Assembly: GCF_015207665.1 (NCBI RefSeq)
Contig: NZ_JADEWL010000038.1
Coordinates: forward strand, 1 to 49,501
DNA: 49,501 bases
From: Plectonema cf. radiosum LEGE 06105
GTDB taxonomy: Bacteria > Cyanobacteriota > Cyanobacteriia > Cyanobacteriales > Nostocaceae
Reading direction: 5' to 3'
How positions within the stretch are numbered: position 1 is the stretch's first letter; every line of letters begins with the position of its first letter. This document shows positions 5,801-38,804 of the stretch, piece after piece. Under the pieces are notes generated by a model, which searched no databases, was not told where the DNA came from, and was given only the letters and a program-made list of their open reading frames with translations. The translations under genes were made by a program, and so were the position numbers.

Positions 5801-6267
5801 GAACTGCACTAGTACATCACGCACCTGTAGAAGCATCAAACTATCCGGGGATGCAAAATGACCCAGAGGTGGAAGCTTTTGCTATGCAGTATGTGATGGA
5901 CTACGAACGCCAGCGCGGTTGGGAACCGGAAGATGTGAGCAACAAACGGGATGGTAGTGGTTTTGACATCCGTAGTCTTGGACAAGTAGATGAAGTAACG
6001 GGAGTAGCACCCGTGCGGCGAATTGAGGTGAAAGGACGGGCGCAGTGCAACCAGCAAGTTTCCCTGACAATCAATGAGTGGCGAAAAGCACAGCAGCTTA
6101 GAGATTCTTACTGGCTATATGTGGTTTGGGGATGTAATACTGATAATCCGCAGTTGTTGATGATACAAAATCCCGCTAAGGTATTGGCGGGGGATGCGAA
6201 GGAAATCAAGCAGGTGACGCGGTATATTGTAGAGGCTGAAGCGTTGCAGCGTAATGCTGTAATTTAG
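2839..6267 (+). CDS. SNF2-family helicase with C-terminal DUF3883 nuclease-like domain
   Basis: An 1142-residue SF2/SNF2 ATPase. Motif I is DDPGAGKT (125-132), motif II is DEAH (225-228), motif III is LLTATPHQGD, and motif VI is QRMGRIHRIGQ (about 577-587). A coiled helical region spans about 330-470. The last 150 residues match the DUF3883 pattern, with GSGFDIR around D1043 and IEVKG with E1063 and K1065. This D...ExK spacing suits a PD-(D/E)xK-like nuclease fold, so helicase and cleavage or recognition may sit in one chain. It resembles DISARM DrmD-type helicases, but no drmA, drmB or drmC is nearby. It heads a defence-like cluster with the DUF1156 methylase 118 bp downstream. The role in restriction of foreign DNA is inferred. 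Confidence 0.85.
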   Translation: MVEQLIGKRIQIPGQFTGAVTVEQFDVVDDTLLLTVRTKEGELREAILSNSELSEILAAQQQTSVATVDGNGFFLFVESARIKTAFAYDPHFAVSLSGVRPLPHQIEAVYERILPQVRLRFLLADDPGAGKTIMAGLLLKELKLRNAIDRVLILAPAPLTIQWQDELRSKFSETFEVVNSNLAKNQLAGNPWERFRQCIASIDFAKREDIAPGILQVDWDLVIIDEAHKCSARTQGDDLRRTGRYKIAEELSKITERILLLTATPHQGDVNQFHNFLRLLDPEQFISDEINPQLLKLDDSPWFLRRIKEELRDFQGRKLFKERIARTVPFTLSAAEHHLYEQITNYINTYLGQTKGRKQAAVALARTVLQRRLASSLKAIFNSLERRKQRFTQLVEELDKLSPKEQKQHLINLGKFVDPEVESDDCEEEQLEELAIESTVAEQVDQLREELRELNRLVKLTQQVIDIGTETKLNRFKECLSKAEFDELQDGRGKLLIFTEHRDTLEYLKKSLKEWGYSTCEIHGGMNVLARKNAQKDFQLHKQICLATEAAGEGINLQFCRLMINYDLPWNPNRLEQRMGRIHRIGQENKVYIFNFVAVNTVEGRVLDKLLTKLEEIRAAMGDRVFDVIGQLLQLNDIRFEELVREATYTKANEDEVLEQIEHLDPKRLDALEEATGVALATSHVDLTQIRRTQSQDYVSEEQRLMPRYVEEFFKRACEFMRVNLDNRADGLWRVSYVKEEFRSNNLEAVRRLGTPDKEYLKLTFYKEHLAAPVHQDADLLSPGHPLFAAIIERLDIQLWDKIAQKSAVFIDADAKQPYRIHFFEVRVAGVGRQGKDTVLKARLCAVAEKSTGELALISPDCLHDLAPAQSYPDLAIYPPTPQEQQKVENWLKVKVQRPLMDMERKQRQRELQIRQDYLQKAMESAIGEAQRTQMKLAAKVAGGDETYRVVRDNAQNKVRYLQERYKNKQSELEYLKIIRPGRVAYLGTALVHHAPVEASNYPGMQNDPEVEAFAMQYVMDYERQRGWEPEDVSNKRDGSGFDIRSLGQVDEVTGVAPVRRIEVKGRAQCNQQVSLTINEWRKAQQLRDSYWLYVVWGCNTDNPQLLMIQNPAKVLAGDAKEIKQVTRYIVEAEALQRNAVI

Positions 6268-6272
6268 TTATT

Positions 6273-6280
6273 GCGATCGC
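6273..6280. other. HIP1 octamer GCGATCGC
   Basis: Highly iterated palindrome of cyanobacterial genomes. Further copies are at 15754, 15818, 32446 and 35681. Five copies were noticed in the window. Confidence 0.9.
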
Positions 6281-6385
6281 GCAGCTTAGATTACATAGCA
6301 CAAAGTAATCCCGGTCTACAACAATTGCTTTACTTTATTTTGTTATGCTTGCATGATGTTTTATGTTTAAACAATCTAAAATCAA

Positions 6386-9247
6386 ATGACCAACGACCGT
6401 CGCCTAATTGAAGATTTTATTCCCATTCGTGAAATATCTGCTGAATCTGCCCGCGAGAAATCTATTAGAAAAGGACATATTTCTACACTACATTTATGGT
6501 GGGCAAGAAGACCTTTAGTAGCAGCAAGGGCGGCGGTTTTTGCTTCTTTAGTAGCAGCACCAGAATCTTCTCAAAAACGCACAGCTTTAAGTAAGGCGAT
6601 GATTGATTTGTGCAAGTGGGAAGCGGGAGAAGTTACTATTAATAAAGCCAAAAGACAGATATTAGAAGCACAACGAGAAAGGTTAAATTTACCAGCGAAT
6701 ACACCATTAAATCAAGTACCACCACCGAAGGTTTTAGATATGTTTTCTGGTGGTGGGGCAATTCCTTTAGAAGCGTTACGTTTGGGTTGTGAAACCTACG
6801 CTGTTGAGCTTAATCCTGTGGCTCATATTATTGAGCTTTGTACTTTAGTTTATCCACAAAAGTACGGTAAAAAATTAGCAGATGAGGTAGAGAAATGGGG
6901 TAATTGGGTAATCGAAAAGGTAAGGGAAGAAATTGGTGATTTATATCCAAATATAGAGAATGCGGAATCAAGAAATGGGGCTGAGGATAAAGCAGAACAA
7001 AGCGACGTACAATTAGATTTATTTTCTCAAAATCAATCCAAAAATCAAAAATCAAAAATTGGACTTACACCAGTAGCTTATTTATGGACGCGCACGGTGA
7101 AATGTCCTAACCCTGGTTGTGGTGCTGCGGTTCCTTTGGTGCGCCAAACTTGGTTGTGTAAAAAACCTAAAAAATATGTAGCGTTGAAGGTTATTCCCAA
7201 CCAAGAGACAAAACAAGTTGAGTTTGAAGTAGTAGAAGCAGAAACAGAAAAAGCACTAGGTTTTGACCCATCTTCTGGTAGTTCTCGCGGTAATTCTACT
7301 TGTAGGCATTGTGGAACTACTGTTAATAAAGCTTATGTCAAAGAACAGGGTAAGGCTAGTAATATTGGTCAGCAATTAATGGCGATTGTTTGCACTACTC
7401 CTGGTGAAAAAGGTAAAACTTATTTATCTGGTAAATCTTACAATTCTTATATTCCTGACGAAGCTGATTTAAAAAATAGATTAGAAAACCTTTGTGCAGA
7501 AACAGGTTTAACAATTCCCAATGAACCGATTTTTTCTGCTGATACAAGAGCATTTTTTACTCATCTTTATGGTTTAGATAATTTTGGTAAGTTATTCACA
7601 TCCCGTCAATTGCTGTCGCTGATGACGTTTGTTAAGTGGGTACGGTTAGCGCATCAGGAGATGTTGCAGCAAGGGTGTGAGGAGGAGTTAGCGAAGGCTA
7701 TAGGGACTTGTGTAGCTATTACTGCTAGTCGTACAACAGATTACAGTTCAAGTCTTTGTACTTGGAATTATACAGGAGGAAGAGGAAGCAAAAATACGTT
7801 TTCTCGCCAAGCACTACCTATGGTTTGGGATTTTGCTGAATCCGCAGCTTTTAATCCTTTGGGAGCAAATTATAAAGCTGGAATAACAGCAATGTCTGCT
7901 ACATTGCCACTGTATTTTTTTAATAAGTCAGCATCAGTTATTCGTTGTTCTGCAACATCTTTACCAATAGAAGAAAATACATTAGACGCGGTAATTACAG
8001 ACCCACCATATTTTGATTCTGTCCCCTACGCTGACTTATCAGATTTCTTTTATGTATGGTTAAAACGCTCAATTGGACATCTTTATCCGGAACATTTTTC
8101 TAGTCAATTAACTCCCAAGAAAAACGAAGCCATCATGGAACCTTCCCGACATGGGAGAGATAAGAAAAAAGCCGCACAAGCCTATGAAGAAATGATGCAT
8201 AAAGCATTCTGTGAAGCTAACAGAGTACTAAAAACAAACGGCATGATGGTTGTAGTTTATGCCCATAAAACTACATCAGGTTGGTCAACGTTAATTGATT
8301 CTCTCAGACGGGCAAAATTTACCATAACCGAAGCATGGCCCCTTGATACTGAAATGGGGGCACGGTTACGCGGTCAAAATTCAGCCGCACTAGCTTCCAG
8401 TATTTTCCTAATTTCCCGCAAACGCACAGATGCCAAAATCGGTGACTACGCAATGGACGTGCGCCCAGAACTTGCAGAAATCGTTCGCGACCGCGTAAAA
8501 ACCCTGATGGCAGAAGGCGTTACTGGTGCTGATTTAGTCATCGCTTGCATCGGTGCTGGCTTACGCGCCTACACTCAATACGACCGCGTAGAACTTCCCA
8601 ACGGTGACGAATTAGACGCTAATTCCTTCCTTGACGAAGTACAAAAAGAAGTTTTAGAAGCAGTTTTAACCGACGTGTTACTGTGCGATAAAAAAGGTGT
8701 TTCTGCCGTCGATAAACCCACCCAATATTACATTTTGGGACGCTACGAATACGGGGAAGCTATTGTAGAATTTGACGAAGCTAACACCTTAGCCCGTGGT
8801 GTTGGTGTAGAACTTGACAGCGCTGGAGGGTTAACGGATGGCAAACTGGGACTGGTAAAGAAAACTAAAAACCAAGTACAATTACGAGACTATACAGAAC
8901 GCGGTGCGGATGAAGATTTGGGCATTCAAAAAACAGAAAAACAACAACAATTTAATGTCAAACCCCAAGCCCTTGGTACAGCACCAACATTAATAGATAT
9001 TCTCCATCGCTTGCTGTGGCTGCAAGAAAATAAACCCCAAGAAATTAGCAATTTTTTAACATTATCCCAACCAGATGCTACCCAATTACGTCTCGTTGCT
9101 CAAGCTTTAGCTGGACGTGCATTAACACCAGAAGCGGGTGCAGAAATTGTTAATAATAACCGCACCAAAGAACAACAACAAATTGATACCTTGTTAGCTT
9201 CTTGGAAACGAGTAATAGAAGATAATTTATTTACTCAAAGTAAGTGA
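6386..9247 (+). CDS. DUF1156 DNA methyltransferase
   Basis: A 953-residue amino-methyltransferase with the DUF1156 N-terminus (ESAREKSIRKGHISTLHLWWARRPL). SAM-binding motif I is VLDMFSGGGA (from 116) and the catalytic motif is DPPY (539-542). A long insert between them carries zinc-ribbon-like cysteines (CPNPGC and CRHC). DPPY methylases of this kind modify adenine N6 or cytosine N4. DUF1156 genes are repeatedly found beside DUF499 ATPases and SNF2-type helicases in bacterial defence islands. Here it would mark self DNA for the neighbouring helicase/nuclease. A linker near residues 217-225 is encoded by a 7-bp tandem repeat. A hairpin terminator follows at 9269. Confidence 0.88.
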   Translation: MTNDRRLIEDFIPIREISAESAREKSIRKGHISTLHLWWARRPLVAARAAVFASLVAAPESSQKRTALSKAMIDLCKWEAGEVTINKAKRQILEAQRERLNLPANTPLNQVPPPKVLDMFSGGGAIPLEALRLGCETYAVELNPVAHIIELCTLVYPQKYGKKLADEVEKWGNWVIEKVREEIGDLYPNIENAESRNGAEDKAEQSDVQLDLFSQNQSKNQKSKIGLTPVAYLWTRTVKCPNPGCGAAVPLVRQTWLCKKPKKYVALKVIPNQETKQVEFEVVEAETEKALGFDPSSGSSRGNSTCRHCGTTVNKAYVKEQGKASNIGQQLMAIVCTTPGEKGKTYLSGKSYNSYIPDEADLKNRLENLCAETGLTIPNEPIFSADTRAFFTHLYGLDNFGKLFTSRQLLSLMTFVKWVRLAHQEMLQQGCEEELAKAIGTCVAITASRTTDYSSSLCTWNYTGGRGSKNTFSRQALPMVWDFAESAAFNPLGANYKAGITAMSATLPLYFFNKSASVIRCSATSLPIEENTLDAVITDPPYFDSVPYADLSDFFYVWLKRSIGHLYPEHFSSQLTPKKNEAIMEPSRHGRDKKKAAQAYEEMMHKAFCEANRVLKTNGMMVVVYAHKTTSGWSTLIDSLRRAKFTITEAWPLDTEMGARLRGQNSAALASSIFLISRKRTDAKIGDYAMDVRPELAEIVRDRVKTLMAEGVTGADLVIACIGAGLRAYTQYDRVELPNGDELDANSFLDEVQKEVLEAVLTDVLLCDKKGVSAVDKPTQYYILGRYEYGEAIVEFDEANTLARGVGVELDSAGGLTDGKLGLVKKTKNQVQLRDYTERGADEDLGIQKTEKQQQFNVKPQALGTAPTLIDILHRLLWLQENKPQEISNFLTLSQPDATQLRLVAQALAGRALTPEAGAEIVNNNRTKEQQQIDTLLASWKRVIEDNLFTQSK
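7037..7060. repeat. 7-bp tandem repeat (TCAAAAA) in the methylase gene
   Basis: About three units of a TCAAAAA-type heptamer, encoding a basic linker of the methylase. Heptamer repeats are typical of filamentous cyanobacterial genomes. Confidence 0.6.
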
Positions 9248-9268
9248 TTTATCTAAAGTTCTAATTTG

Positions 9269-9296
9269 ATAGAGGCATCGTATATGATACCTCTAT
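9269..9296. terminator. Hairpin between convergent genes, probable bidirectional terminator
   Basis: Arms ATAGAGGCATC (9269-9279) and GATACCTCTAT (9286-9296) pair over 11 bp with one mismatch and a 6-base loop. It lies between the methylase stop and the end of the leftward 105-residue gene. There is no long T run, so the terminator call is moderate. Confidence 0.55.
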
Positions 9297-9342
9297 ACAT
9301 TGAATAAGGGTAATAAACTACATAAATTCAATGCAAGTTAGT

Positions 9343-9660
9343 TTATTTTTTAAGTTTACGAATTTGCTCTACTATATGGTTTTCTATTTCTCTTTTATGG
9401 GTACTAGTGGCACTTCGCTGGTAGTTTCTTCCGGCTTCTTGGATAAACTTGCGTTTATCACTTGAAGAACTATTGGGTTTCATACCCGATTTCTTCATTT
9501 GTTTTTGTAGTTCAACCCAAGTAGTTTCAGCCGTAGCTTCACCTATTTCTACAAGTGCTTGTGGCAACAATCTTTTTGCTTCCTTATGAATATCATCTTC
9601 TGTCTCAAGTGACCTAAGATTAACATTACCAATCTTAATTTTTAAGTCAATTTTACTCAT
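9343..9660 (-). CDS. Hypothetical protein, antisense within the defence cluster
   Basis: A 105-residue basic, hydrophilic, probably helical protein with no family I recognise. It starts at ATG 9660 with a strong GCAGGAGG ribosome site 8-9 bases upstream, so it is likely expressed. It lies on the opposite strand between the DUF1156 methylase and the DUF499 ATPase, and it ends at a hairpin shared with the methylase. There is no signal peptide or membrane segment. The C-terminal half is rich in Lys, Arg and Ser (KKSGMKPNSSSSDKRKF), so it may bind nucleic acid. Its position suggests a regulator or accessory factor of the defence module, but that is speculation. Confidence 0.65.
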   Translation of the reverse strand: MSKIDLKIKIGNVNLRSLETEDDIHKEAKRLLPQALVEIGEATAETTWVELQKQMKKSGMKPNSSSSDKRKFIQEAGRNYQRSATSTHKREIENHIVEQIRKLKK

Positions 9661-9837
9661 ACAATAATTCCTCCTGCAAGAAATTAATCAATGACATTAC
9701 CGTATTATTATAGAACTTATGTACTAAGTATATCTTTTTATGCAAGTAGTTTTTAATTCATTGTGACCAAAGACTACACATAAGCTAGGGATGGAAAGTA
9801 ATAATAGAAACAATCCCACGTTAAAACATAAAATCCT

Positions 9838-12771
9838 ATGAGTAGCGCTTATCAAATAAAACCTTGGACACAGATAGTCACTCCCCACGCTGATATTATC
9901 AGTGGTAATTTAGATAACGCTACTTACGCAGCCAGTTTGGGTGCAGTGATTCGTCAAGACCCCAAATGTCCAATTGTGTACAGGGATGCGCGTGATTTCT
10001 ACGCTGCTACGTACTTGACCACAGCATTAAAAAAACTACTCTCAGACGTACTAAAAGGATTACAGGGAGATGCAGGGGATAGGGTATTACAACTCCGCAC
10101 ACCCTTCGGTGGTGGTAAAACTCATTCCCTGATTGGTCTCTACCACATCACCAAAAACCGCGCTTCATTACAAGATATTCCTCAATTAGATACTTTACCC
10201 GACCCCGGTAACGTGCGGGTTGCTTATTTTATTGGTTTAGATATTGATGTAAATACAGGTATTCAAGTAGAACCGGACTTAAGAATATTTACACCTTGGG
10301 GATATTTAGCATGGCAAATTGGTGGACATGAAGCCTATTCTTTAGTGCAAACCGCAGACCAACAATACATTGCCCCTGGTAACGATATATTAAGGAAAAT
10401 ATTAGGCGACCAAGCCAATTTAATACTTATAGATGAACTACTAATTTATATTGAAAACGCGATGGCGAAACAGGTGGGAGACTCTACCTTTGGTCGTCAA
10501 GTTCTTACTTTTATCCAAAAATTAACAGAAGTTGTCCGCGAATCTGACAAAACAGTTTTAGTATATTCCCTACAAGCAAGTGTGGGAGAATCTTTTGGGA
10601 ATGAAGGCTTATTAAGCGCTTTAGATAAATTAGTTAGTCGCATTGACGCTAAAAAAGAACCTGTTTCCGGTGATGAAGTCATGCGGGTTGTGCAACGGCG
10701 TTTATTTAGCAATATTGGCGACACAACTATTATCCAAGAAATTGCCAAACAACAAGCAGAATTATTCCGCAAGTTCCGCGAAAGTTATGCAGAAACTAAC
10801 CGAGAAAAACAGCAAGTACAACAAGAAGCCGATTTATTAGCAGAAAGAATTTTATCAAGTTATCCGTTTCATCCCGACTTAATCGATTTAATGTATCATC
10901 GTTGGGGTAGTCTTCCTAGCTATCAACGTACTCGCGGTGCTTTGCAATTTCTAGCATCCATAACTTACGCATTATGGCAAGGACAAGATAATTCTTGGTT
11001 AATTACTCCCGCTAATATCCCCTTTGAAAACGACGTTACAAGGAGTTCTTTTTTCACTCAAGTAGGGGAAAGAGATGCTTATAATGCAGTATTAGGCGCA
11101 GACTTAACTGGTCGGAAAGGTAAAGCAAAAATAGTAGATAATCGCATCGCTAATGATGCACCAGCACTGGCGCATTTAAAAGTAGGAACTCGGTTAGCTT
11201 CAGCAATTTTAATGTATTCCTTTGGAGCAAGAAGCGGGGAAGATAGGGGTGTTTTGGAACAAGATATTACAGCAGCTTGTTTAGCACCAGGATTAGACCG
11301 TACCACCATCACAGCAGCTTTAAGTGACCTGCGAGAACAATTACTTTACCTGCATTATGTCGGTCGCCGTTATCGGTTTGAAACCAAACCCAATCTTAAC
11401 AAGTTAATTGCTGATGAAGAAAGCAAAGTTGGTGGTGATGAAGTATTACAAAAAATCCGCGATGAATTAAGTAAGACTTTAGGAATATCATCCAGAAACG
11501 GAGAGGTAAATAATAGAGGTAAAGTTGTATTGTGGGCTAAAGATGCAACGGCAATTACAGATAAAATATCGCAATTTAGTATCGCTTATCTTGACCCCAG
11601 TTGGGCAGAAAAAAGCCAGGAATTAATCTTAGCTGATACTTTAGATTGGTTAGAAAATCGCGGTAACGATAAACGGGAATATAAAAATGCAATAGCTTTT
11701 GTAGTTCCTAATAAAGTTCAAATGGATAAAGCACGCAAAGGTGCTAGAACCGCATTGGCTATAACTTCGCTGATTGACCAAAAAAACAAGTATAAATTTT
11801 CCTCAGAAGACTTAGAAGAACTAACTGGTAAAATTAAAGATTCCACCAGCGAAATTGGTGCAGCAATTCGCCGTCTTTATGATTATATCTTGTTGCCATT
11901 ACCAGATACAAGTTCCAACCCAATACGGTTAGAGAATATAGATTTACAATCACAGTTAAATACCAGTCAAAATTTACAAGAAAGAGTACTAGATGCGCTC
12001 AAAAATCACGTTTTTGATTCAATTACTCCTGCTAAATTAATGCGCTTATCTGGTTTAGAAAATCCAGAAAATGAATATATCACAGCGGAAGAATTAGTCA
12101 GTTACTTCTTCCGCTTTCCTAATTTTCCCAAAATGTTAGGTGTAGATGGAATTAAAAAAGCGATTCTCAAAGCAATCGAACAAGGTATGATTGGTTATGT
12201 ACCATCGATGACAATAAGTAGCAGCACACCCATAGTAGAAAATCCCAGTTTAATCAGCTATGAGAAAGTAATTCCTGCCGATGAATTAGACCTTGCTGGT
12301 TATCTTTTATCTCCAAATTTAGTGAATAAATTGCGTTCCCTCGCATCTGAAAATGAAGTAGAAACAACTTCAAATGAAGAGGAAGATAATACTAATAATA
12401 CTGACGGTGAAGATGATAGTTCGGGTGGCTTTGATAGCACCACATCAAAAACAGTTGAGACAGTCCCAGAAGAGAAAAAGACCGTTGAATATAAATCAGA
12501 AACAAGTAGTATCGAACGCACAATTTTAACTGATATTATTAACGGTAAACAACCTGCACATTACTACAAATTGACTTCCGTTACCGATAAATCAAAAATC
12601 TTTGAACTATTTCAGATGTTACAGACATTATCAGATAAAGCAGAGAGAATGACTATCAAAATAGAAGTACAAGCGCACACACAAGATAAATTTGATCCAA
12701 CTTGGATACGTAATGCTATTGAAGAACCACTTGATGAAATGGATATTCAAGCATCTACACGTTTGGAATAA
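9838..12771 (+). CDS. DUF499-family P-loop ATPase
   Basis: A 977-residue ATPase of the DUF499 family. The Walker A motif is F-GGGKTHS (G91-S97), in the LRTPFGGGKTHSLIG context typical of the family. Walker B is LILIDE with D199 and E200. The remainder is helical, and an acidic Asn/Asp/Ser-rich linker lies near residues 840-870 (NEEEDNTNNTDGEDD). DUF499 proteins are partners of DUF1156 methylases in predicted defence systems, and their biochemical activity is not established. It is separated from the methylase by the leftward 105-residue gene, so it probably has its own promoter in 9661-9837. A role as the ATP-driven switch of the system is inferred. Confidence 0.85.
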   Translation: MSSAYQIKPWTQIVTPHADIISGNLDNATYAASLGAVIRQDPKCPIVYRDARDFYAATYLTTALKKLLSDVLKGLQGDAGDRVLQLRTPFGGGKTHSLIGLYHITKNRASLQDIPQLDTLPDPGNVRVAYFIGLDIDVNTGIQVEPDLRIFTPWGYLAWQIGGHEAYSLVQTADQQYIAPGNDILRKILGDQANLILIDELLIYIENAMAKQVGDSTFGRQVLTFIQKLTEVVRESDKTVLVYSLQASVGESFGNEGLLSALDKLVSRIDAKKEPVSGDEVMRVVQRRLFSNIGDTTIIQEIAKQQAELFRKFRESYAETNREKQQVQQEADLLAERILSSYPFHPDLIDLMYHRWGSLPSYQRTRGALQFLASITYALWQGQDNSWLITPANIPFENDVTRSSFFTQVGERDAYNAVLGADLTGRKGKAKIVDNRIANDAPALAHLKVGTRLASAILMYSFGARSGEDRGVLEQDITAACLAPGLDRTTITAALSDLREQLLYLHYVGRRYRFETKPNLNKLIADEESKVGGDEVLQKIRDELSKTLGISSRNGEVNNRGKVVLWAKDATAITDKISQFSIAYLDPSWAEKSQELILADTLDWLENRGNDKREYKNAIAFVVPNKVQMDKARKGARTALAITSLIDQKNKYKFSSEDLEELTGKIKDSTSEIGAAIRRLYDYILLPLPDTSSNPIRLENIDLQSQLNTSQNLQERVLDALKNHVFDSITPAKLMRLSGLENPENEYITAEELVSYFFRFPNFPKMLGVDGIKKAILKAIEQGMIGYVPSMTISSSTPIVENPSLISYEKVIPADELDLAGYLLSPNLVNKLRSLASENEVETTSNEEEDNTNNTDGEDDSSGGFDSTTSKTVETVPEEKKTVEYKSETSSIERTILTDIINGKQPAHYYKLTSVTDKSKIFELFQMLQTLSDKAERMTIKIEVQAHTQDKFDPTWIRNAIEEPLDEMDIQASTRLE

Positions 12772-17381: not shown

Positions 17382-18488
17382 ATGAAAGAGATCATTGCTG
17401 CGAACCTGATCCGCTACCGTAAAAGTCTGGGCTTGTCTCAAGAACAACTTGCAGAACAAGCCGGGGTAACTCGCCAGAGTATCAATAACTACGAGAACGC
17501 CAAAACTTTACCAGACAGCAAAATCCTCTCTGCTCTGGCAAGTGTTTTGGGCATTACACTCGATGATTTGTTACGCTCACAAGGTGAAGGATTACCCAAC
17601 TTCCGGTTCCGCGCTCATGTAACATTCGCCAAAAATACCCACCAGTTTGCGGCTCAAGTGCTACGAATGCTGCAAACTTATAAGGCTCTAGAAGAAGCGG
17701 TAGGTTATCCGACCTATACCCCAGAAAGCACACCTTGTCACTGCGTCTCAGGTAATGAAAAACGCATTCAAGCAATTGCTGCTCAGTTTCGTCACCGTTT
17801 GGGATTGGGAGATGCTCCTATTGCTAACCTGTTTCAATCTGTAGAAGAAATCGGCTTAAAAGTTTTACGCTCCTCCGTTCCCATTAAAGGTTTCTTTGGT
17901 CTCAGTGCCTGTAGTGAAGTGAGCGGTGCTTTTGTTTTGGTAAATACCCATAACATCACCATCGAACGTCAATTATTTACCCTTGCCCATGAGATTGGAC
18001 ACCTAATTTTTCACCGAGTAGAGTACCAAGACACTTTAGTTGAGGAAGGAACTTCATATGAAGAAAAAGCACGAGAGCAGGTTGCTAATTACTTTGCAGG
18101 TCATCTACTTGTTCCTCAAGCTGAATTTGAGCGGATGTACGCCCTTACCAAGGATATTGTCAAACTAAAACGGCATTTTCGGGTGAGTTACTTAGTCATT
18201 TTGCACCGTTTAAATGAAATGGAAATTATCGATTTTGCTAAAGAAAAAGCAAAAATCTGTGCAATCTATAAAAAGCAACATGATGGTGCATCTTTGCAAA
18301 ATTCAATGGAATTACCACCAGCACTAGCTACGGAGGATTATCCAGAAAATGAACGTTATGAATTTTTAATTTGGCAGTCCTTAAATTTGGGCAAGATTTC
18401 AGAAATGAAAGCAGCAGAACTTCTCAACTTAACTGTTGAAAAACTGCGGGTACGTCGTCAAGAAAATAAGGTTTATGAAGTCGTTTAA
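17382..18488 (+). CDS. Xre-family regulator fused to ImmA/IrrE metallopeptidase
   Basis: A 368-residue protein with an N-terminal HTH of Xre type (residues 5-62, GLSQEQLAEQAGVTRQSINNYE) and a C-terminal ImmA/IrrE (DUF955) zinc peptidase carrying HEIGH at 203-207 and E232 in REQVANYF. Proteins of this layout act as self-contained repressors relieved by proteolysis, and as antitoxin-like partners of PIN toxins. The next gene, a PIN-like protein, begins inside its last codons (14-bp overlap), which supports a toxin-antitoxin or damage-response pair. It starts at ATG 17382. The ribosome site is weak, and the upstream interspersed repeat may have replaced part of the leader. Confidence 0.9.
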   Translation: MKEIIAANLIRYRKSLGLSQEQLAEQAGVTRQSINNYENAKTLPDSKILSALASVLGITLDDLLRSQGEGLPNFRFRAHVTFAKNTHQFAAQVLRMLQTYKALEEAVGYPTYTPESTPCHCVSGNEKRIQAIAAQFRHRLGLGDAPIANLFQSVEEIGLKVLRSSVPIKGFFGLSACSEVSGAFVLVNTHNITIERQLFTLAHEIGHLIFHRVEYQDTLVEEGTSYEEKAREQVANYFAGHLLVPQAEFERMYALTKDIVKLKRHFRVSYLVILHRLNEMEIIDFAKEKAKICAIYKKQHDGASLQNSMELPPALATEDYPENERYEFLIWQSLNLGKISEMKAAELLNLTVEKLRVRRQENKVYEVV

Positions 18489-18987
18489 AGGAAAAGGAAC
18501 AATTCTTGACGCAACAGCACTCATTGATTTTTGCTGGCTAAACGAGTGGGAGTGGTTAGAACAGCACTATAAGCCGTTGTACATTGCCCAGGAAGTTCTG
18601 GACTCAGATCAACTGGAACTTCCCACCCGTGAAGCCGCAAAAACTTACCTAACAGCGCTCAATCTCTCAACAGAAGAAATGTTCGCCAGTTTTCTAGAAT
18701 TTGGCGCAAAAAAACCTCTCTTGAGTGCCGCAGACCGTTCTACAATTGCCATTGCCCGTCATCAGTTGCTTATTTGCGCCAGTGATGACGGGCTAGTTGT
18801 TGAAACTTGTAAAACATACAACATTGCCTATACCAGAACACTGCGATTATTCGGTGAGATGGTAGAAACTAAACACAAAACAGTGATAGAGGTGGAAGCA
18901 ATGGCTGATAAGTTAATCGAGGAGCGGGGTAAACATATTTCCCCCAAAGTTTTGACAGATTGGAAAACAAGTTTACAAAAATTTTGA
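18475..18987 (+). CDS. PIN-domain protein, probable toxin partner of Xre-ImmA
   Basis: A 170-residue protein with PIN-fold acidic positions: ILDATALIDF near the N-terminus, then SAADRSTIAIAR, then CASDDGLVVETC. These correspond to the metal-binding Asp/Glu set of PIN ribonucleases. I chose ATG 18475 (MKSFKGKGT), which overlaps the Xre-ImmA stop by 14 bp. The alternative from 18436 would overlap by 53 bp. Pairing of Xre-ImmA (COG2856) with PIN proteins is a described toxin-antitoxin-like arrangement. Whether this one cleaves RNA is unknown. Confidence 0.78.
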   Translation: MKSFKGKGTILDATALIDFCWLNEWEWLEQHYKPLYIAQEVLDSDQLELPTREAAKTYLTALNLSTEEMFASFLEFGAKKPLLSAADRSTIAIARHQLLICASDDGLVVETCKTYNIAYTRTLRLFGEMVETKHKTVIEVEAMADKLIEERGKHISPKVLTDWKTSLQKF

Positions 18988-31381: not shown

Positions 31382-31652
31382 CACCTGCTCCTCCAATCCC
31401 TTCTGCCATTAATTTACCATTTCACTTAATACATGGGTACTAGCAATCAGCTATTTTGTGGTGTAACAATTCTTTACAAGCTGCTCCAACGCACCCTCGT
31501 CGGATTCATTCCCATAAGTACAGTCCAATACCTCAAGTTGTAACTTAAACTCGATAATTGGAAAAATATTTAAAAAAATTAGTTTTTTGTACATCCAACT
31601 CACTAATTATCAGTTACTATTGTAAAAATTATGTTTTTTGGGGTAGTAAATC

Positions 31653-32888
31653 GTGGTCAAACTCGATATACCCATACTTGAGCAAATTTCTGCGGGTCTA
31701 ATTCAGGTGCAAGCAAAAAAGGGGAAACTTTATCCTTACCCTCATAACTTGCAGATGGGTTACGACAGCGTAGTTTTAGCATTTTTAGTGGGCGGGAAAC
31801 CAGGGGATGCGCCAGCTAGCGTCCCAGAGTTTTGCAAGCTTTGCGAGCAGCCCTTTGAAGAATGGGGAGTGGAAATTGATGACGAGATAGACGGATACGA
31901 CACTCTGCTTTTTTTGGGGGAACCTACCGAACTGGCGATTGAATTAGCAGAAGCTTTTGGTGGAAGCGTCCTCTCGCAAGAACAATCTCGAATTGCAACA
32001 AAATTATTTCAACACTGTCAGTCACATCCACAAGGAATACAAATTTACACCAAGTTCCGAAAATTTATTATTGAGCATCCTGTTTTATCCAACCAGGAGT
32101 TCGTGGAAGCGAAAGGGTCTTTTGGACTCGGTATTGGGCTATCAGATTTATTAGATGAGTGCTACGAACCCGTACCAAGTTGCTACCAGTTAAAAGGAAA
32201 CTTTTATGGCTGCCCGTACTGTCAAGCATTAGCATCAATAAATCCGCAAGAACAAGTAATTGCCAACCCTAACTGTAATCGCTGTCCACCCGGACGCAGA
32301 CTCAAGCGAAAAGTAAAACTACCTCCGGACTGTCTAAAACTTAAGCGTGGCATCGAACGCTTTTGGTTTTACCCCGGACGTGCGGAAATTCGACTGTACC
32401 AGAAGTTAACAGACTTGGGACTGGAAGTAGAACTTTATCCAGAATGCGATCGCTACGACTTAAGAATTAAATTTGAGTCGGGTGAGGTATGGGCGCTTGA
32501 TTTGAAGGATTACTCTAATCCCTATCTGTTAGTAAGGAATTTAGGTGATGAACCAATACCCAACGAACCCGAATGGGATGTTGGATATATCGTTATCCCT
32601 ACGGAACGAAAGAAAGAACGTCCTGCTTATCTTAAAGAACTTAAATCGCGATGGCGGTGGGAGAATGTTAAACCCGTCTTTGACGATGCCATTTTTGCAT
32701 TAGCTAAGAAAAAAGTGGGTAAGCACGTCGTTCAACCGCAAGCGAGTAGCGATACAAGCCCCACAAAAAGTAAACAAATTTTGGCTGGTGTTCGTGGTGA
32801 TACAAGTTCAACCAAAAGTAAGCCTCTGGATTCAAAAAGCGCAAAGAATGATAAAAGTCCCGCTAAAAACAAAGGGAGAAAGACATGA
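31653..32888 (+). CDS. pPIWI_RE-associated REase protein with zinc ribbon
   Basis: A 411-residue protein from GTG 31653, the first gene of the island. A zinc ribbon is formed by C187-x2-C190 and C208-x2-C211 (GCPYC and NCNRC). After it, IRLYQKLTDLGLEVELYPECDRYDLRIKF and WALDLKDY give D269 and D283-L-K285, the PD-(D/E)xK nuclease pattern. The tail is Ser/Lys-rich and disordered. In the three-gene island described by Burroughs, Iyer and Aravind, a REase-fold protein accompanies a DinG-type helicase and the pPIWI_RE protein. It is proposed to cut the invading DNA. It overlaps the helicase gene by 4 bp (ATGA). Confidence 0.82.
   Translation: MVKLDIPILEQISAGLIQVQAKKGKLYPYPHNLQMGYDSVVLAFLVGGKPGDAPASVPEFCKLCEQPFEEWGVEIDDEIDGYDTLLFLGEPTELAIELAEAFGGSVLSQEQSRIATKLFQHCQSHPQGIQIYTKFRKFIIEHPVLSNQEFVEAKGSFGLGIGLSDLLDECYEPVPSCYQLKGNFYGCPYCQALASINPQEQVIANPNCNRCPPGRRLKRKVKLPPDCLKLKRGIERFWFYPGRAEIRLYQKLTDLGLEVELYPECDRYDLRIKFESGEVWALDLKDYSNPYLLVRNLGDEPIPNEPEWDVGYIVIPTERKKERPAYLKELKSRWRWENVKPVFDDAIFALAKKKVGKHVVQPQASSDTSPTKSKQILAGVRGDTSSTKSKPLDSKSAKNDKSPAKNKGRKT
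32446..32453. other. HIP1 octamer GCGATCGC
   Basis: Cyanobacterial highly iterated palindrome inside the REase gene. Confidence 0.9.
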
Positions 32889-35800
32889 GAGAAACAAGGT
32901 CTTGGCGCTACAAAGCGACAAAATCCCTGACGTTACAAACAAATTTACATAAAGACCAAATTGAAGCGTTAGTCGATTTGGAGTTATGTTTGTTTGCTAT
33001 TGAAAAGTTGGGTATTCAATCTGAAATTGATACAGCAATTTCTGTGTGGTTTCTAATTTCTAATCGGTTTTATTTGTTTCCACGATTAACTTCATTAGTA
33101 GAGACAGCAGAAGCAAAGAGAACGCTATTTAATCTCAGGCAGTTGGTTCCGTATTTATCAAACGAAGATGTTACAGAACAATTGCTAAAGATATACAGTC
33201 AAATTCCCTCGAAGTACCGAGCCTACGATGTTGATGATAAAACTTATCGGTTCGCCCGAAAATCCATGCCTTCTATCTGGGGCAACCGTTTTGAGCGTTT
33301 TGAGGAATTGCTTAGTAACAAATTGAAGTATCGCCAGCGTACTGTTAAATATGCAGAACCCGGTAAAGAATATCGCTTTCGGTCTGGAGAAAACACTTAC
33401 AGCGTCAGAATTCCAGAGGATTTACCCATATACCAAGGCAGGGTTATATCAGTACATCGTGAGAATAACAAAGCAATCTCTGTTACACGAAAAGAAATGG
33501 AGTCGGCAGCAAATCTTCTAGATGAACGCTGCGGTCAAAACTATAAGAGGCGTTTATCAGATATCATCCTTGAGCATTTTCAAGGAATGGGATTTGTTGA
33601 AATCGACACAATAGTGTTCGACGGAGTAAAAAACTTGGTTGGACTGCTAAATGCAGGTAAATCGACGCTAATTGAAATTCTGACTGTAGCGGCAGCACAA
33701 AAAGGACACCGAGTTGGTATTGTCTTTAACGAAGTTGTGACGTGCCTAAGAATGGCAAGTTTACTCAAAAAAGTTGGTTTACGGGTATCGGTAGTAATTG
33801 GTCAAAGGAGTCGAAAAACTCATCTTGAGAACTGGCATAGTGTAGATGGTGGAATGGATGGCTTCACGCACTTATCTACAGCTTGTCCTTTAAGCCAATA
33901 CTTTCAGCCCTCAAATCCTTCTTCCCCTCCCTGCTTCGATTTAAGAGAAGTAAAAGACTTGGAAGAAAGTGATGATAACACCAACAACAACGGTAATAAT
34001 AAAAACAAGAGCAATGGAAATGGTGCAAGAGTTTGTCCGCTGATTGGGCAGTGTCCGAGACACCGAGATGCTAACGAGCTTGCGTCAGTTGATGTCATTT
34101 TAACTACAGTAGCTGCTGCTATATTCACTCGTCCTCTACCGCACGTAAGTCCACAGTCAATTACTTACTATGAATTGATGTACCGGACTTGCAGTATCGT
34201 GTTTTTCGACGAGTGCGACAAGGTGCAATCGAACCTTGATTCAACATTTTTACCCGCTATCAAGCTAATTGAGAGGGGAAGTAATGGGTTTCTAGACCAG
34301 GTAGTAACATGGACGCGAACAACTAAACTACGTAATTCTAGAAACGACCTGCGACAGCTTGCTTTTGGGCAATTTAATCATGCTCTGCAAAATGCCGATA
34401 CCCTTGTTGATAATATTTGCACGCAATTGCAACTATCACCTGATGAAAGCAAATGGTTGGCTTCAGAATTCTTTACCTGTTCGTCCCTTGCGAGAGAATT
34501 TGTATTAGAAATTGCTGCTTCTGAAGGTATAGATACTGACTCATCTACTTTTATTCTTGATAAAAACCCTGTATATAAGGAATTAGCTGATTTCCTGCTA
34601 GGCGATTGGAAAAACTCCTGGCTTGCTGAGTATGCAATGAGACTTCAGAGCGAAAACTACCAAGAACAGCAGGAAACAATTACAAAGATACAAGAAGAAC
34701 TCACTAAAAAAGGCTGGCTGAAGGCAATTAGGGATAAGTGGGGATTTTGTAGCAAGTTTGCATTGTTCCTAAAACTAGTCCTTTTCGTGTCATTTTTTCA
34801 ACAGTCAATAAAAACTGCATACGGACTGGAGCAGCAAGTTGACGGAGCCGACGAAATTGTTTTCTTCAATCGCATTCCACGAGACTTTTACGGACTGATA
34901 CCGGGACTAGCCTCTGGTTTAGTTTGTGGGTTCAAGTTGGAACAACAAGAAAATCAATTGACACTTTGGTACTTCCAAGCACTAGGACAAGGACGCTGGC
35001 TCTTGGAGAACTTTTCCAATTGTTTTGCTGACGAAGGTACGCAAGGAGCGCACGCTTTGCTACTAAGCGGTACAAGTTGGGCGGGGTTAAGTCCTACATA
35101 TCATGTCGAACGCCAAGTTGATTACTTGCTACGTCCAAAGGTTAAAAAGTCTATAGAAGCGATTTCTGAAAGTATTTTTCACTTTTCTCCTTGTTTTTAT
35201 CCTGACGGTAAACCCGTGCGTGTTTCTGGATCAACAAATAAGGAAGAAGGGTTATTGCAAATAGTGCGTTCGCTACTTAGTCAAACTGATATCTTGCAAC
35301 GTGATTTTGACTCGCTACCTGAAGGAAGAAAGCGTTTAATTTGGTATGTCAATAGTTATGAGCAGGTTAATTTTATTTATGATGCCATCCAGAGTATTGA
35401 TACTGGCTCGTATTGGAAAGAGCGGGTAGCAGCTTTGACTTCGCGTTCGCCACTGGAGGAAATTGACGAATCTTTGATTTCTCGCAGTAACGTTGAAAAC
35501 TTTGGTGATACTAATCGAGCGATTTTGATTGTACCAACAGCAGCGATTGGGCGAGGTAAGAACATTTTAAATAAACAAGGATTAAGTGCATTTGGTGGAG
35601 CTTATTTCCTAATTCGTCCACATCCCGCACCTGATGACCTCGAATACAAATTTCGACTGGCATTGTGGAGAGAAAGAAAGGCGATCGCAGGACCTAGGGA
35701 GGGAAACTTTATTGAAGCTTGTCAAGACTGGCGTAGCAAAGGCTATGGCATCTTTCTCAAAAGTCTTGACACCCGAATACAGTATTCCTACAAGGGGCTA

Positions 35801-36100
35801 AACAAAGAAGTACGCGAAGGACTCATTTGGAATTTGATGGTGCTTACCTGGCAGGCTATTGCTCGAACAATTCGTGGCAACCAACCTACCTTAGTCCGTT
35901 TTATCGATGCAGCATGGGCACCCAACCTTGCCCAGAAGAAAGCTGAAACTGAACAAGATTCCTTACTTAAAGGATTTAAGTATGTTTTGCAACCCTACTT
36001 TGGCAAAACTAGAACAGGCTATGACCAAATCGACCTCGCGCTAGTGCGGTCGCTTTACGAACCTTTTTACCGTGCATTGGAGAAAATTGATGGCATCTAA
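32885..36100 (+). CDS. DinG/XPD-like helicase of the pPIWI_RE island
   Basis: A 1071-residue SF2 helicase. Walker A is GLLNAGKS (253-260) and Walker B is FFDECD (D442-D445, a DEAH-box variant). Between them are four cysteines, C334, C350, C384 and C390 (ACPLS, PPCFD, RVCPLIGQCPRHR), in the place where DinG/XPD helicases bind a 4Fe-4S cluster. A poly-Asn linker lies at about 360-380. The C-terminal helicase motifs are partly visible (LIWYVNSYEQV, ILIVPTAAIGRGKNI). In the described island this helicase is proposed to unwind RNA-DNA hybrids or R-loops so that they can be recognised or cut. Coupled to the REase gene by an ATGA overlap. Confidence 0.85.
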   Translation: MRETRSWRYKATKSLTLQTNLHKDQIEALVDLELCLFAIEKLGIQSEIDTAISVWFLISNRFYLFPRLTSLVETAEAKRTLFNLRQLVPYLSNEDVTEQLLKIYSQIPSKYRAYDVDDKTYRFARKSMPSIWGNRFERFEELLSNKLKYRQRTVKYAEPGKEYRFRSGENTYSVRIPEDLPIYQGRVISVHRENNKAISVTRKEMESAANLLDERCGQNYKRRLSDIILEHFQGMGFVEIDTIVFDGVKNLVGLLNAGKSTLIEILTVAAAQKGHRVGIVFNEVVTCLRMASLLKKVGLRVSVVIGQRSRKTHLENWHSVDGGMDGFTHLSTACPLSQYFQPSNPSSPPCFDLREVKDLEESDDNTNNNGNNKNKSNGNGARVCPLIGQCPRHRDANELASVDVILTTVAAAIFTRPLPHVSPQSITYYELMYRTCSIVFFDECDKVQSNLDSTFLPAIKLIERGSNGFLDQVVTWTRTTKLRNSRNDLRQLAFGQFNHALQNADTLVDNICTQLQLSPDESKWLASEFFTCSSLAREFVLEIAASEGIDTDSSTFILDKNPVYKELADFLLGDWKNSWLAEYAMRLQSENYQEQQETITKIQEELTKKGWLKAIRDKWGFCSKFALFLKLVLFVSFFQQSIKTAYGLEQQVDGADEIVFFNRIPRDFYGLIPGLASGLVCGFKLEQQENQLTLWYFQALGQGRWLLENFSNCFADEGTQGAHALLLSGTSWAGLSPTYHVERQVDYLLRPKVKKSIEAISESIFHFSPCFYPDGKPVRVSGSTNKEEGLLQIVRSLLSQTDILQRDFDSLPEGRKRLIWYVNSYEQVNFIYDAIQSIDTGSYWKERVAALTSRSPLEEIDESLISRSNVENFGDTNRAILIVPTAAIGRGKNILNKQGLSAFGGAYFLIRPHPAPDDLEYKFRLALWRERKAIAGPREGNFIEACQDWRSKGYGIFLKSLDTRIQYSYKGLNKEVREGLIWNLMVLTWQAIARTIRGNQPTLVRFIDAAWAPNLAQKKAETEQDSLLKGFKYVLQPYFGKTRTGYDQIDLALVRSLYEPFYRALEKIDGI

Positions 36101-36137
36101 ATCTAATTTGATACAATTATAAGTTTTGCAATTTCCA

Positions 36138-38804
36138 ATGCAAATATCACTATCGTTTGACTTATACTCACTAGTCGTTCCACAAGATTGGAAGAAATTA
36201 TTTGACAAATTACAGCAACGGAAAAATGGTAGAAGCTACATTTCACTACCAGTAGAAAGTCTTAATCATGCACTTCAACTTTTGTTAGATGATGAAATTT
36301 TATTTCCTTCAAAAAATGCATTCAAGCTGAAATCAAACACCAAGTGGTTGTATACCAAAACTGATAAAGTTTCTACTGACTACATTGCAACCGTTGTCAA
36401 AACATGGTTAAGAATTTCTCTTCAAAATACTAAGTCTTTGACAGAAGCTGATATTGCAGAAATTAATTCTCTATCTGGTGACGATTTACACTTTGAGAAA
36501 GTACAACTTCCAGAAAAAGTTTGGACTATTGAGGATGATAAGTTAGAAATTAACTCGTTATACTACAATCTCATCCCATATCTCTTAGCTAGTGCAATAG
36601 CATCTGAACCCCTCAAACTCATTGACCCCACAACTGGCGAGGTATTCAAAGAAGTAGTGTTTCGCTCTTGCTGTGTTGATAATGGTGATGTTGCAGAACT
36701 TATTAGCTGGTCGCCTGAGTCAGAAACTAAAGAAGTGACAGATAAAGATACTAAAAAAAAGAAAAAGACACGGCACTATTACTCCTACCGTATAAATTTT
36801 GCACTTCATTATGCGGCAGATGGAAAACCATACATAAGTTGTAATTATGGCATACGGCGTTGGGTAAGTTGGGAGTTAGGCTATTTATCTTCGCGGGTGA
36901 CAGTTTATGTCAATCCAACAAATTCTACGAGATTTGCACCCTGCCAATTGAAATTCGTGAAAAAGAAAAAGGATGCTCATGATAAGAAAAATGATGACAA
37001 GAAAAAAAATATTGAATTTGAAGGGCATCTTGCACGTTTAATCAGCGAACTTAACTTCCGAGATAAGTTTACAGCTTTGGAAGTAATCAATAATCCCTGC
37101 AAACAAGATGAACTTGCTTGGGGGGTGGTTTACAACAACAATATGTCTCATTCGCACAATGCTGGTATTGGATTATTTCCTCAAGACATTGAAATATTTC
37201 ATAACTGTTGCAGAGAGAAAATACAAAAAGTTTTTGGTGATGTATTTCCCACTATAGAAACTTACATTCGTTGCGATAACAAGCAAGCAGTCAAAAAAAC
37301 TAGCTCTGGATATAAAGCAGTAGGAAAGTTTATTAAATCACATTTTGCTATTGAAAGTGAAGAGATTCCATTCTATATTCCGCAGGATTTGAGACTCATT
37401 TTATTATCACAAACTACGGCTTCCAATAAATTAATTTACTTACTCGCATCCAAATACGGTATTAACGATGTTGTTGTGTATGAACTAGGAGCTAATGGAG
37501 CAGAATTAACAGGAAAAAATTGGGATTCAGAAATAAAAGAGAGAATCAAAAAAATCCTAAACACCTTGAAGACTAATTACGCATCATCCAATAAACAAAC
37601 AATAACTTTAATCGAAATATTACCCAAAGACAACTTTTGGAGAGATGCTAGCCAAGACCCAAAACCTTGTTTTCGTCCTGCACTAGCGATGCTTGGCAGT
37701 GTCACCGACCATTTTGTGGCTGAAGATGATGAAGAAGACCGTCAAGATGCTTTAAGTGAAGAAGAACTCAACAACGCAATTAATGAAAGAGAAGAAACAA
37801 TAGAAGCGAATAAACAACAAGGAAAGTTTGCAAAAATCTCTCTTAAAAGTAATTTAGCCTATCGTATGGAATCATCGCTTAAAAGTTTACTATCGATGGC
37901 TGGCGCACACACAATTACTAATATAGAGGCAGAAAATTTTCCCTCTGATGTTGCTAGTATAGGCGTTTATCTCATTCCTTACTATACAGATGACAGCACT
38001 TATCTTCCTGTTGCAGTGAAGAAAGATAAAACAGGTATTACTGCCAAAGCTTATGGTTGTAATAATTGGCTTGATTTTCATACATTTCAAGTAAAAATGG
38101 CATCAGGCTTGAAAGAAATTACTCCCATTAAGTTAAATCCGAGCAAAATTCAGGATTGGGTATTTAATAATTTATTCCAAGAATGTCAACAACCTACACT
38201 TTTTTATTTTGATACAACTAATCTTCGTAATCGCGGTTTAGTTTTTCTTCAGAAACAGTTTTGGAGAAAGCATTATCTTGCTTTTAGATCTGATAAAAAT
38301 GAACCTATTTCTTATATACCCACATCAAATTATCCACATATTAGGGTAGCCAGTATCATTGCACCTAATAATGAACATGAAGTGCCTATTTATCGCGTTT
38401 GTGATGAAGATGGCGAATTGAAAGGGCATACTGCGGGGGTATTTTACCCTTCATCTCTTGATTCTGAGTGTGGAAACTATTATTTGAGTAACCAGCGTCC
38501 TGAAACCCGTAGTGGAGGTATTTTAAATGAGAGCAAATTAGTTTACTTAGCCAAAACTAAAGGAGCAAATAAAGGGCAACTGAAAAAACCAAATCCTCGC
38601 GCTCAAGGGTACAATCCCCGTGGCGTTATTCTAAACCTGATACTTCAAGAAGGAGACTGCTTTAGCGATTGGGCAACGTTAGTTCAATGTCAGCGACTTT
38701 ACGGTATGATTGAGTATCTTGACGCTACAATTTTCGCCGAAGGACTCCACCGTGCTGCGAAACTTAATAAGTATCGACCAATCCAAGCTATTCGCGAGCC
38801 GTAA
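36138..38804 (+). CDS. pPIWI_RE protein (prokaryotic PIWI-RE, RNase H-like)
   Basis: An 888-residue protein from ATG 36138; a TTG at 36126 is also in frame. It has the layout of pPIWI_RE proteins: an N-terminal module, a MID-like centre (about 400-520) and a C-terminal RNase H-like PIWI domain. The PIWI domain starts near LFYFDTTNLRNRG (D692, R697), continues with IRVASIIAPNNEHE (R736, E746/E748, candidates for the family's Arg-Glu pair), and ends NPRAQGYNPRGV...GMIEYLDATIFAEGLHRA. Two Lys-rich inserts (near 210-220 and 275-290) are unusual. The family is predicted to use a nucleic-acid guide to restrict plasmids or phages, without experimental proof that I know of. 37 bp after the helicase gene. 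Confidence 0.85.
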   Translation: MQISLSFDLYSLVVPQDWKKLFDKLQQRKNGRSYISLPVESLNHALQLLLDDEILFPSKNAFKLKSNTKWLYTKTDKVSTDYIATVVKTWLRISLQNTKSLTEADIAEINSLSGDDLHFEKVQLPEKVWTIEDDKLEINSLYYNLIPYLLASAIASEPLKLIDPTTGEVFKEVVFRSCCVDNGDVAELISWSPESETKEVTDKDTKKKKKTRHYYSYRINFALHYAADGKPYISCNYGIRRWVSWELGYLSSRVTVYVNPTNSTRFAPCQLKFVKKKKDAHDKKNDDKKKNIEFEGHLARLISELNFRDKFTALEVINNPCKQDELAWGVVYNNNMSHSHNAGIGLFPQDIEIFHNCCREKIQKVFGDVFPTIETYIRCDNKQAVKKTSSGYKAVGKFIKSHFAIESEEIPFYIPQDLRLILLSQTTASNKLIYLLASKYGINDVVVYELGANGAELTGKNWDSEIKERIKKILNTLKTNYASSNKQTITLIEILPKDNFWRDASQDPKPCFRPALAMLGSVTDHFVAEDDEEDRQDALSEEELNNAINEREETIEANKQQGKFAKISLKSNLAYRMESSLKSLLSMAGAHTITNIEAENFPSDVASIGVYLIPYYTDDSTYLPVAVKKDKTGITAKAYGCNNWLDFHTFQVKMASGLKEITPIKLNPSKIQDWVFNNLFQECQQPTLFYFDTTNLRNRGLVFLQKQFWRKHYLAFRSDKNEPISYIPTSNYPHIRVASIIAPNNEHEVPIYRVCDEDGELKGHTAGVFYPSSLDSECGNYYLSNQRPETRSGGILNESKLVYLAKTKGANKGQLKKPNPRAQGYNPRGVILNLILQEGDCFSDWATLVQCQRLYGMIEYLDATIFAEGLHRAAKLNKYRPIQAIREP

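Follow-up and report, generated by a model that had tools for sequence, protein, structure and literature searches.

Burroughs, Iyer and Aravind (2013; PMC3702460) predicted from gene neighbourhoods that a trio encoding a restriction endonuclease (REase), a DinG helicase and a PIWI protein forms a DNA-destroying system of the restriction type, and the family was named pPIWI-RE for an absolutely conserved arginine (R) and glutamate (E) predicted to bridge an extension of the PIWI sheet. Here we describe such a trio at positions 31653-38804 of a 49,501-nucleotide contig of the cyanobacterium Plectonema cf. radiosum LEGE 06105 (NZ_JADEWL010000038.1; this whole stretch is called the window), where it is plasmid-borne and where, judging from aligned residues, the Argonaute-like protein appears to have lost both name-giving residues and the site with which it would cut. 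Among the papers listed, within a literature coverage that excludes preprints and most subscription journals, a single experimental study of the family was found, and none that tested the 2013 prediction of defence in vivo. That paper concerns PsPIWI-RE of Pseudomonas stutzeri, which carries D525 and D610 and cuts single-stranded DNA with RNA guides; its R639 precedes E718, and the substitutions R639A and E718A did not abolish cleavage (PMC10991935). A first-pass annotation of the window knew of no detailed mechanism and overlooked this published RNA-guided biochemistry of a relative, as it did the missing R, E and first catalytic aspartate and the exchange of the PIWI gene among close relatives.

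The island is known in kind. It shares with the published pPIWI-RE islands the gene order, the X, Y and Z domains, the zinc ribbon, the REase, the cysteine-rich DinG helicase, the MID-PIWI protein and the tight spacing, and it is unlike them in a PIWI protein without the conserved R, the conserved E and the first catalytic aspartate (PMC3702460). The loss of R and E, the exchange of the PIWI gene, the repeat before gene 1 and the giant PIWI-ATPase proteins of some relatives were not met in the text consulted, that of PMC3702460 included. PsPIWI-RE also has its PIWI gene beside dinG and a nuclease gene (PMC10991935). The window protein is set apart from it by a tyrosine at the column of the first aspartate, a distinction made without direct comparison of the two sequences. 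In DdmDE, helicase and nuclease are fused in DdmD and DdmE is the prokaryotic Argonaute; the two names appear to be swapped once in PMC12904381. In the window, in contrast, a gene of its own encodes each of the two, and the helicase belongs to the DinG type (PprDinG/pPIWI_RE_Z). DdmDE is guided by single-stranded DNA, DdmD unwinds and nicks, and the Argonaute part is non-cutting (PMC12904381); the likeness lies in the combination of an Argonaute-like protein, here too most likely non-cutting, with a helicase and a nuclease. Type IV-A CRISPR systems are likewise often plasmid-borne, have a DinG helicase and were proposed to act against competing plasmids (PMC11551745, PMC11519345), and CasDinG unwinds double-stranded DNA and RNA/DNA duplexes (PMC10450177). 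Unlike the island, they are guided by a CRISPR ribonucleoprotein, act independently of a nuclease and are not known to include a PIWI protein, and the window has no CRISPR-like array.

The genome of LEGE 06105 comprises about 7.6 Mb, and the closest named relatives of the island contig are cyanobacteria. Since the ends of the contig share 127 identical bp, we took it as a closed circle, a plasmid of about 49,374 bp, on which a MobA/VirD2-type relaxase is encoded (PF03432, 1.9e-38). The three open reading frames run in the same direction (Table 1); genes 1 and 2 overlap by 4 bp, and gene 3 follows after 25 bp if it begins at its TTG or after 37 bp if it begins at the ATG at 36138 (its residues are counted from the TTG). 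The main family matches lie far beyond chance. Gene 1 matched the pPIWI_RE_REase and Y profiles over their cut-offs (PF18154, 4.9e-28; PF18156, 2.8e-19), gene 2 matched pPIWI_RE_Z (PF18155, 4.1e-25) and the PADLOC profile PprDinG (5.6e-149), and gene 3 matched pPIWI_RE_X (PF13111, 1.7e-32) and the PADLOC profiles PprPIWI (4.9e-52) and RNaseH_pPIWI_RE (1.1e-10). The trio is the REase-DinG-PIWI island of Burroughs et al. (2013), carried by a plasmid. The first-pass annotation had already read the region as three tightly packed, plasmid-borne genes of this kind, and the reading held also in its details: the zinc ribbon (Cys187/190/208/211) and the D269...D283-x-K285 motif (D283-L-K285) noted for gene 1 are present, the four cysteines noted in the helicase (Cys334/350/384/390, with Cys436 also there) lie between a Walker A motif from residue 253 and the DE at 442-443, and the third protein has 888 residues from the ATG.

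Table 1. Features of the pPIWI-RE island in the window
Feature	Position	Strand	Evidence
Inverted repeat before gene 1	31612..31651	+	Alignable in 12/12 clade islands
Gene 1: PD-(D/E)xK-type REase with Y domain and zinc ribbon; 411 aa, GTG start	31653..32888	+	PF18156, PF18154, PprRE 6.4e-47
Gene 2: DinG-type superfamily 2 helicase, four-cysteine (iron-sulphur-type) region, N-terminal Z domain; 1071 aa	32885..36100	+	PF18155, PprDinG
Gene 3: Argonaute-like X-MID-PIWI protein; 892 aa (TTG) or 888 aa (ATG)	36126..38804	+	PF13111, PprPIWI, predicted fold

Six Pfam families had been expected among the three proteins, and two of them failed, both in gene 3: the MID profile PF18157 reached 25.0 bits against a cut-off of 26.6, 1.6 bits short, and the RNase H model PF13032 had no match up to E 10, nor any in the organism's own genome. 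These two results indicate a divergent PIWI half, and because of the second we used PF13111 as the search key. In a PDB sequence search the REase and the helicase had no match, and the PIWI protein had only WD-repeat matches (E 0.38 or worse), which we took as chance. An AlphaFold2 model of gene 3, built from 24 sequences (predicted local distance difference test, pLDDT, 77.2; predicted TM-score, pTM, 0.72), supported an Argonaute-like fold. A third protein without a match to pPIWI_RE families, or with a predicted structure lacking PIWI/MID folds, either of which the first-pass annotation had set beforehand as an outcome that would count against it, is not what was found: the best Foldseek match of the model is the Thermus thermophilus Argonaute 4n76 (6.6e-12), and 119 PDB matches were obtained at E <= 1e-3. 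Among the best 50 of these 119, 48 titles name Argonaute or PIWI systems (those of 4kpy_B and 8xih_B do not say), including a DdmDE chain (9bgk_E, rank 43) and SPARSA (8y7z_B, rank 46). The Argonaute matches cover most of the Argonaute length, with 7-11% identity. A BFVD fold search returned nothing at 1e-3.

To compare the PIWI proteins we used the relatives found in a scan of genome contigs, which gave 34 named loci (L numbers). The REase-helicase-PIWI order was seen in 32 of the 34, while L042 and L058 start inside the helicase gene. Eleven loci, L030-L040, form a close clade with the window (helicase 68-91% identical; genera Nostoc, Calothrix, Scytonematopsis, Symplocastrum, Lyngbya, Tolypothrix, Chamaesiphon, Dulcicalothrix and Microcoleus), L035 being the same plasmid as L014. 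The PIWI alignment comprised 55 rows, 12 of the window clade and 43 others. Duplicates (L019, L035, L081, L082), split PIWI genes (L021, L028, L042, L046, L089) and short or cut ones (L029, L053, L058) were dropped, the longer fetches L072-L076 replaced L048, L050, L057, L059 and L062, giant proteins were trimmed to their first 1050 residues (L076: 1150), annotated coordinates served to bring in L083 and L090, and L091 was represented by the first of its two PIWI-matching genes.

In this alignment, column 743 is R in 43/43 of the non-clade rows and S, N or A in the clade (9, 2 and 1 rows; S743 in the window), and column 835 is E in 39/43 of the non-clade rows (exceptions L025, L073, L083 and L091) and F, I, L or M in the clade (7, 3, 1 and 1 rows; I835 in the window). 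Neither the R nor the E was therefore found in the window protein or in any member of its clade (0/12 each), and the result was unchanged under four MAFFT modes. The neighbouring column 745 is R in 40/43 of the non-clade rows and I or L in the clade. We infer from conservation, order and position that columns 743 and 835 are the published R and E: both fall within strands of the model (739-745 and 833-839), no column other than 835 is E at this level of conservation, and at that level 743 and 745 are the sole R columns between the second aspartate and 835. The spacing from R to E (median 87, range 67-133) is near, not equal, to the 79 residues of PsPIWI-RE, and that from the second aspartate to R is 38-59 residues against 29.

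The active-site columns were placed by fold position and conservation, PsPIWI-RE being outside the alignment. The first RNase H aspartate column lies in model strand 610-618 and holds Y615 in the window; it is tyrosine in 12/12 of the clade and aspartate in only 2 of the 55 rows (L026, L027). The second is aspartate in 35/55 and is kept in the window (D696) and in 11/12 of the clade, so that the window protein has one of the two catalytic aspartates. Among 398 genomes of the phylum of L057, PF13032 gave three matches, two of them over the cut-off; one match, L093, which stands outside the 55-row counts, has Tyr and His at the two aspartate places by hidden Markov model alignment. Membership of the same broad family and the kept D696 could speak for an active RNA-guided nuclease like PsPIWI-RE. 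We nevertheless rejected this as very unlikely for the tyrosine shared by the whole clade: D525A or D610A each abolished cleavage by PsPIWI-RE (PMC10991935), so the window PIWI protein, with tyrosine in the first of the two columns, is most likely non-cutting.

The residues expected for cutting are instead kept in the REase. We aligned every single-frame REase and helicase of the collected loci (60 rows each; three loci without a whole REase and three with a split helicase were omitted), extending an earlier REase alignment of the window with 30 of the 32 named loci that have a REase (L053 and L061 left out). E245, D266, D269, D283 and K285 of the REase are invariant (60/60), which suggests that cutting is most likely the job of this protein. 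Of the zinc cysteines, C187 is found in 60/60 rows, C190 in 59/60, C208 in 58/60 and C211 in 13/60; the cysteine exceptions are L080 and L025 at the zinc sites and L083 at the iron-sulphur site. In the helicase, C334/C350/C384/C390, G258-K259, D442-E443, R994 and R997 are invariant in 13/13 sequences, and over the 60 rows the sole lettered departure is C334S in L083, one to three cut or broken rows being gapped at some other sites. If the PIWI protein does not cut, the REase must, which makes the model directly testable in the branch of the window.

All three genes are under purifying selection (ratio of nonsynonymous to synonymous change, dN/dS, 0.087-0.299 in 12 comparisons), which suggests that a non-catalytic PIWI protein is still needed. 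A decaying, non-functional island would agree with the broken relatives (L040 has a split helicase gene, L042 and L046 a split PIWI gene), but the three frames of the window are intact and selection is purifying, and this reading was rejected as extremely improbable.

We lean, with modest confidence, towards a plasmid-carried, nucleic-acid-directed DNA interference system in which a non-cutting Argonaute-like sensor works with a helicase and a nuclease, sharing out the tasks much as DdmDE does and, in its helicase, resembling plasmid-borne type IV-A CRISPR. Gene 3, with a short guide or on an RNA-DNA hybrid, would recognise the DNA of foreign plasmids or phages, leave it uncut and recruit the DinG helicase, which would open the DNA and travel along it, and the zinc-ribbon PD-(D/E)xK nuclease would cut the DNA thus exposed. 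In this model we infer defence itself, the assembly of a complex, the loading of guides and what is targeted, as well as the guide dependence and the use against plasmids or phages put forward in the first-pass annotation. In favour of the model, gene 1 matches 23 plasmid records, and with the helicase as query no match was obtained in 50,697 phage records or, with two patterns, in viral contigs.

Several observations weigh against this model. The tested relative, PsPIWI-RE, is an active RNA-guided nuclease, and its knockout led to ciprofloxacin sensitivity, not to a defence phenotype (PMC10991935). Neither a guide nor a gene for guide processing nor a target can be seen; for the guide source this agrees with the first-pass annotation. 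The TM-scores of the PIWI-model matches are modest (0.28-0.40 by query). The model of the REase is good (pLDDT 84.4, pTM 0.78) but had no PDB match at E <= 1e-3, and weak matches to EcoO109I, Hjc, HindIII and DdmD stand among unrelated folds, so that the REase assignment rests on family profile and motif. A MID column that is Gln in 37/43 of the non-clade rows is Asp or Lys in the clade, where binding of the guide 5′-end may consequently be altered or lost. Gene 3 matches just one plasmid record. Finally, a purely guided system would not need the PIWI exchange described below to shift its specificity.

In the original model of Burroughs et al. the PIWI protein senses R-loops or hybrids without a guide: it would bind RNA-DNA hybrids that arise when invaders are transcribed or replicated, the helicase would unwind and the REase would cut. 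In its favour, no guide source is seen: a direct-repeat scan of the window turned up a single coding repeat (1520-1819) and nothing like a CRISPR array. DinG acts on R-loops and hybrids, as argued in PMC3702460, and the clade has kept the PIWI fold without the MID Gln, the R and the E. Against this, PsPIWI-RE takes guides in vitro (PMC10991935) and the fold match spans nearly the whole of guided Argonautes, and we regard guide-free sensing as rather doubtful.

The PIWI gene alone has been replaced at least twice in near-identical islands. In L030 and L036 the REase and the helicase are 97% identical (synonymous divergence, dS, 0.12 and 0.14) and the PIWI proteins 60% (dS 1.32); in L014 and L038 the REase and the helicase are both 95% identical (dS 0.20 and 0.25) and the PIWI proteins 57% (dS 1.50). 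In steps of 200 bases, the DNA identity of L030 and L036 stays at 0.88-0.98 through the REase and helicase genes and falls to 0.52-0.72 within the PIWI gene, and that of L014 and L038 is 0.85-0.99, then 0.49-0.69, returning to 0.84/0.89 at the PIWI end and flank. Identity drops at the helicase stop in both pairs and recovers, in L014/L038, about 180 bases before the PIWI stop. The helicase tree pairs L030 with L036 and L014 with L038 (both 100/99), whereas the PIWI tree groups L036, L038 and L040 (100/100); the opposite grouping was rejected by the approximately unbiased test (p 2.3e-18 for the helicase, 1.1e-50 and 1.4e-65 for PIWI), for groups picked after the identities were known. The window shares the PIWI type of L030 (87%). 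Exchange is recurrent, not universal: among the 18 listed pairs with a helicase identity of at least 0.90 (clade pairs at or under 0.90 fall outside them), PIWI identity is 0.70 or lower in 5, which are not independent of each other, and higher in 13. L084 and L088 are a further candidate (helicase 99, REase 90, PIWI 69).

Replacement of the PIWI gene alone suggests that the pressure to change falls on PIWI, whether through target recognition or through escape from an inhibitor. We put forward tentatively, as a possibility, that PIWI has become an exchangeable specificity subunit in this branch, which would have dropped the R/E bridge, the MID Gln and catalysis and kept the Argonaute scaffold as a non-cutting recogniser, its gene being exchanged over almost its full length among nuclease-helicase pairs that hardly differ. 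In that case the protein, and not the guide alone, would contribute to recognition. The swapped PIWI protein would resemble the HsdS subunits, which set the target of type I restriction enzymes. The natural pairs L030/L036 and L014/L038, differing mainly in PIWI, provide ready swaps for separating recognition from destruction.

The distribution of the family is patchy. Gene 3 was matched in 19 of 217 genomes of the family sample, in 7 of them at an identity of at least 55% over nearly the full length, and PF13111 in 13 of the 386 genomes sampled from the phylum (the organism's own genome is included in the 7 and in the 13). This patchiness argues against a role in replication, stress tolerance or plasmid maintenance instead of defence, as does the position of three relatives beside other defence genes: L014 adjoins an Eco29kI-type restriction-modification system, L015 a HaeIII-family endonuclease with an adenine methylase, and L089 BREX genes, although other annotated relatives do not obviously have such neighbours. 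Such a housekeeping role, to which the higher ciprofloxacin sensitivity of the PsPIWI-RE knockout points (PMC10991935), appears unlikely.

An inverted repeat conserved in the clade, AGTTACTA-N24-TAGTAAAT, which is imperfect in the window, stops one base short of the gene 1 start codon, a GTG (Table 1). In an unguided upstream scan it was the best inverted repeat in 9 of the 12 clade islands, with arms of 15-18 bases in L014, L030, L032, L033, L036, L038 and L040 and shorter ones, 8 bases long, in L031 and L037, that of L031 being no better than one third of shuffles; the window, L034 and L039 had a different repeat as their top scorer, in no case above chance. The RNA fold of the leader had a z of -3.3 in the window and of -2.6 to -5.4 over the five sequences folded. 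In the covariation analysis 92% of cells were paired and no measure exceeded shuffles. There are too few pair changes to distinguish an RNA hairpin from a DNA operator, and the repeat may be either an operator or a leader RNA hairpin. An Rfam search gave one match, below gathering, and a sigma-70 promoter scan of 31400-31800 gave none (1.2 expected by chance).

Some relatives are broken or rearranged. The helicase or PIWI gene is split over several frames in L040, L042, L046, L021, L028 and L089, and in L090 an IS3-type transposase gene stands at the helicase position, where only a 128-aa helicase-matching frame remains. Bradyrhizobium, Sphingomonas, Pseudoroseomonas and a Gemmataceae metagenome-assembled genome (L072-L076, L092 and L049, the last incomplete and cut at the fetch edge) have a giant third protein, about 3000-3200 aa long. 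These giants consist of a pPIWI-RE part of about 950 aa, about 1400 aa without a family match and a conserved AAA_22 ATPase (by Pfam in L049, L050 and L059), which we read as STAND-like. In Azospirillum ramasamyi the giant is split into proteins of 846 and 2403 aa (L091, 5599-15375), and a WYL regulator gene adjoins the island in L091 and L092. A homologue of the ATPase half, 49% identical over 98%, is encoded at L095 7579-13491 by a 5.9-kb gene annotated as ATP-binding protein, on a Ti-type plasmid of Agrobacterium leguminum beside WYL, ThiF-family and patatin-like phospholipase genes. The ATPase of the giants may be a module that defence-like loci have in common.

The plasmid of the window carries a second defence system at 2839-12771, with HmaA, HmaB and HmaC (helicase, methylase and ATPase; 6e-207, 8e-143 and 6e-127), followed on the opposite strand by a gene for a 1300-aa protein without a match in PADLOC (E 0.001) or Pfam (E 0.01). 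At 17382-18984 lies a helix-turn-helix metallopeptidase gene, RmrA/CapP-like, followed by a small, weakly PDC-S70-like gene.

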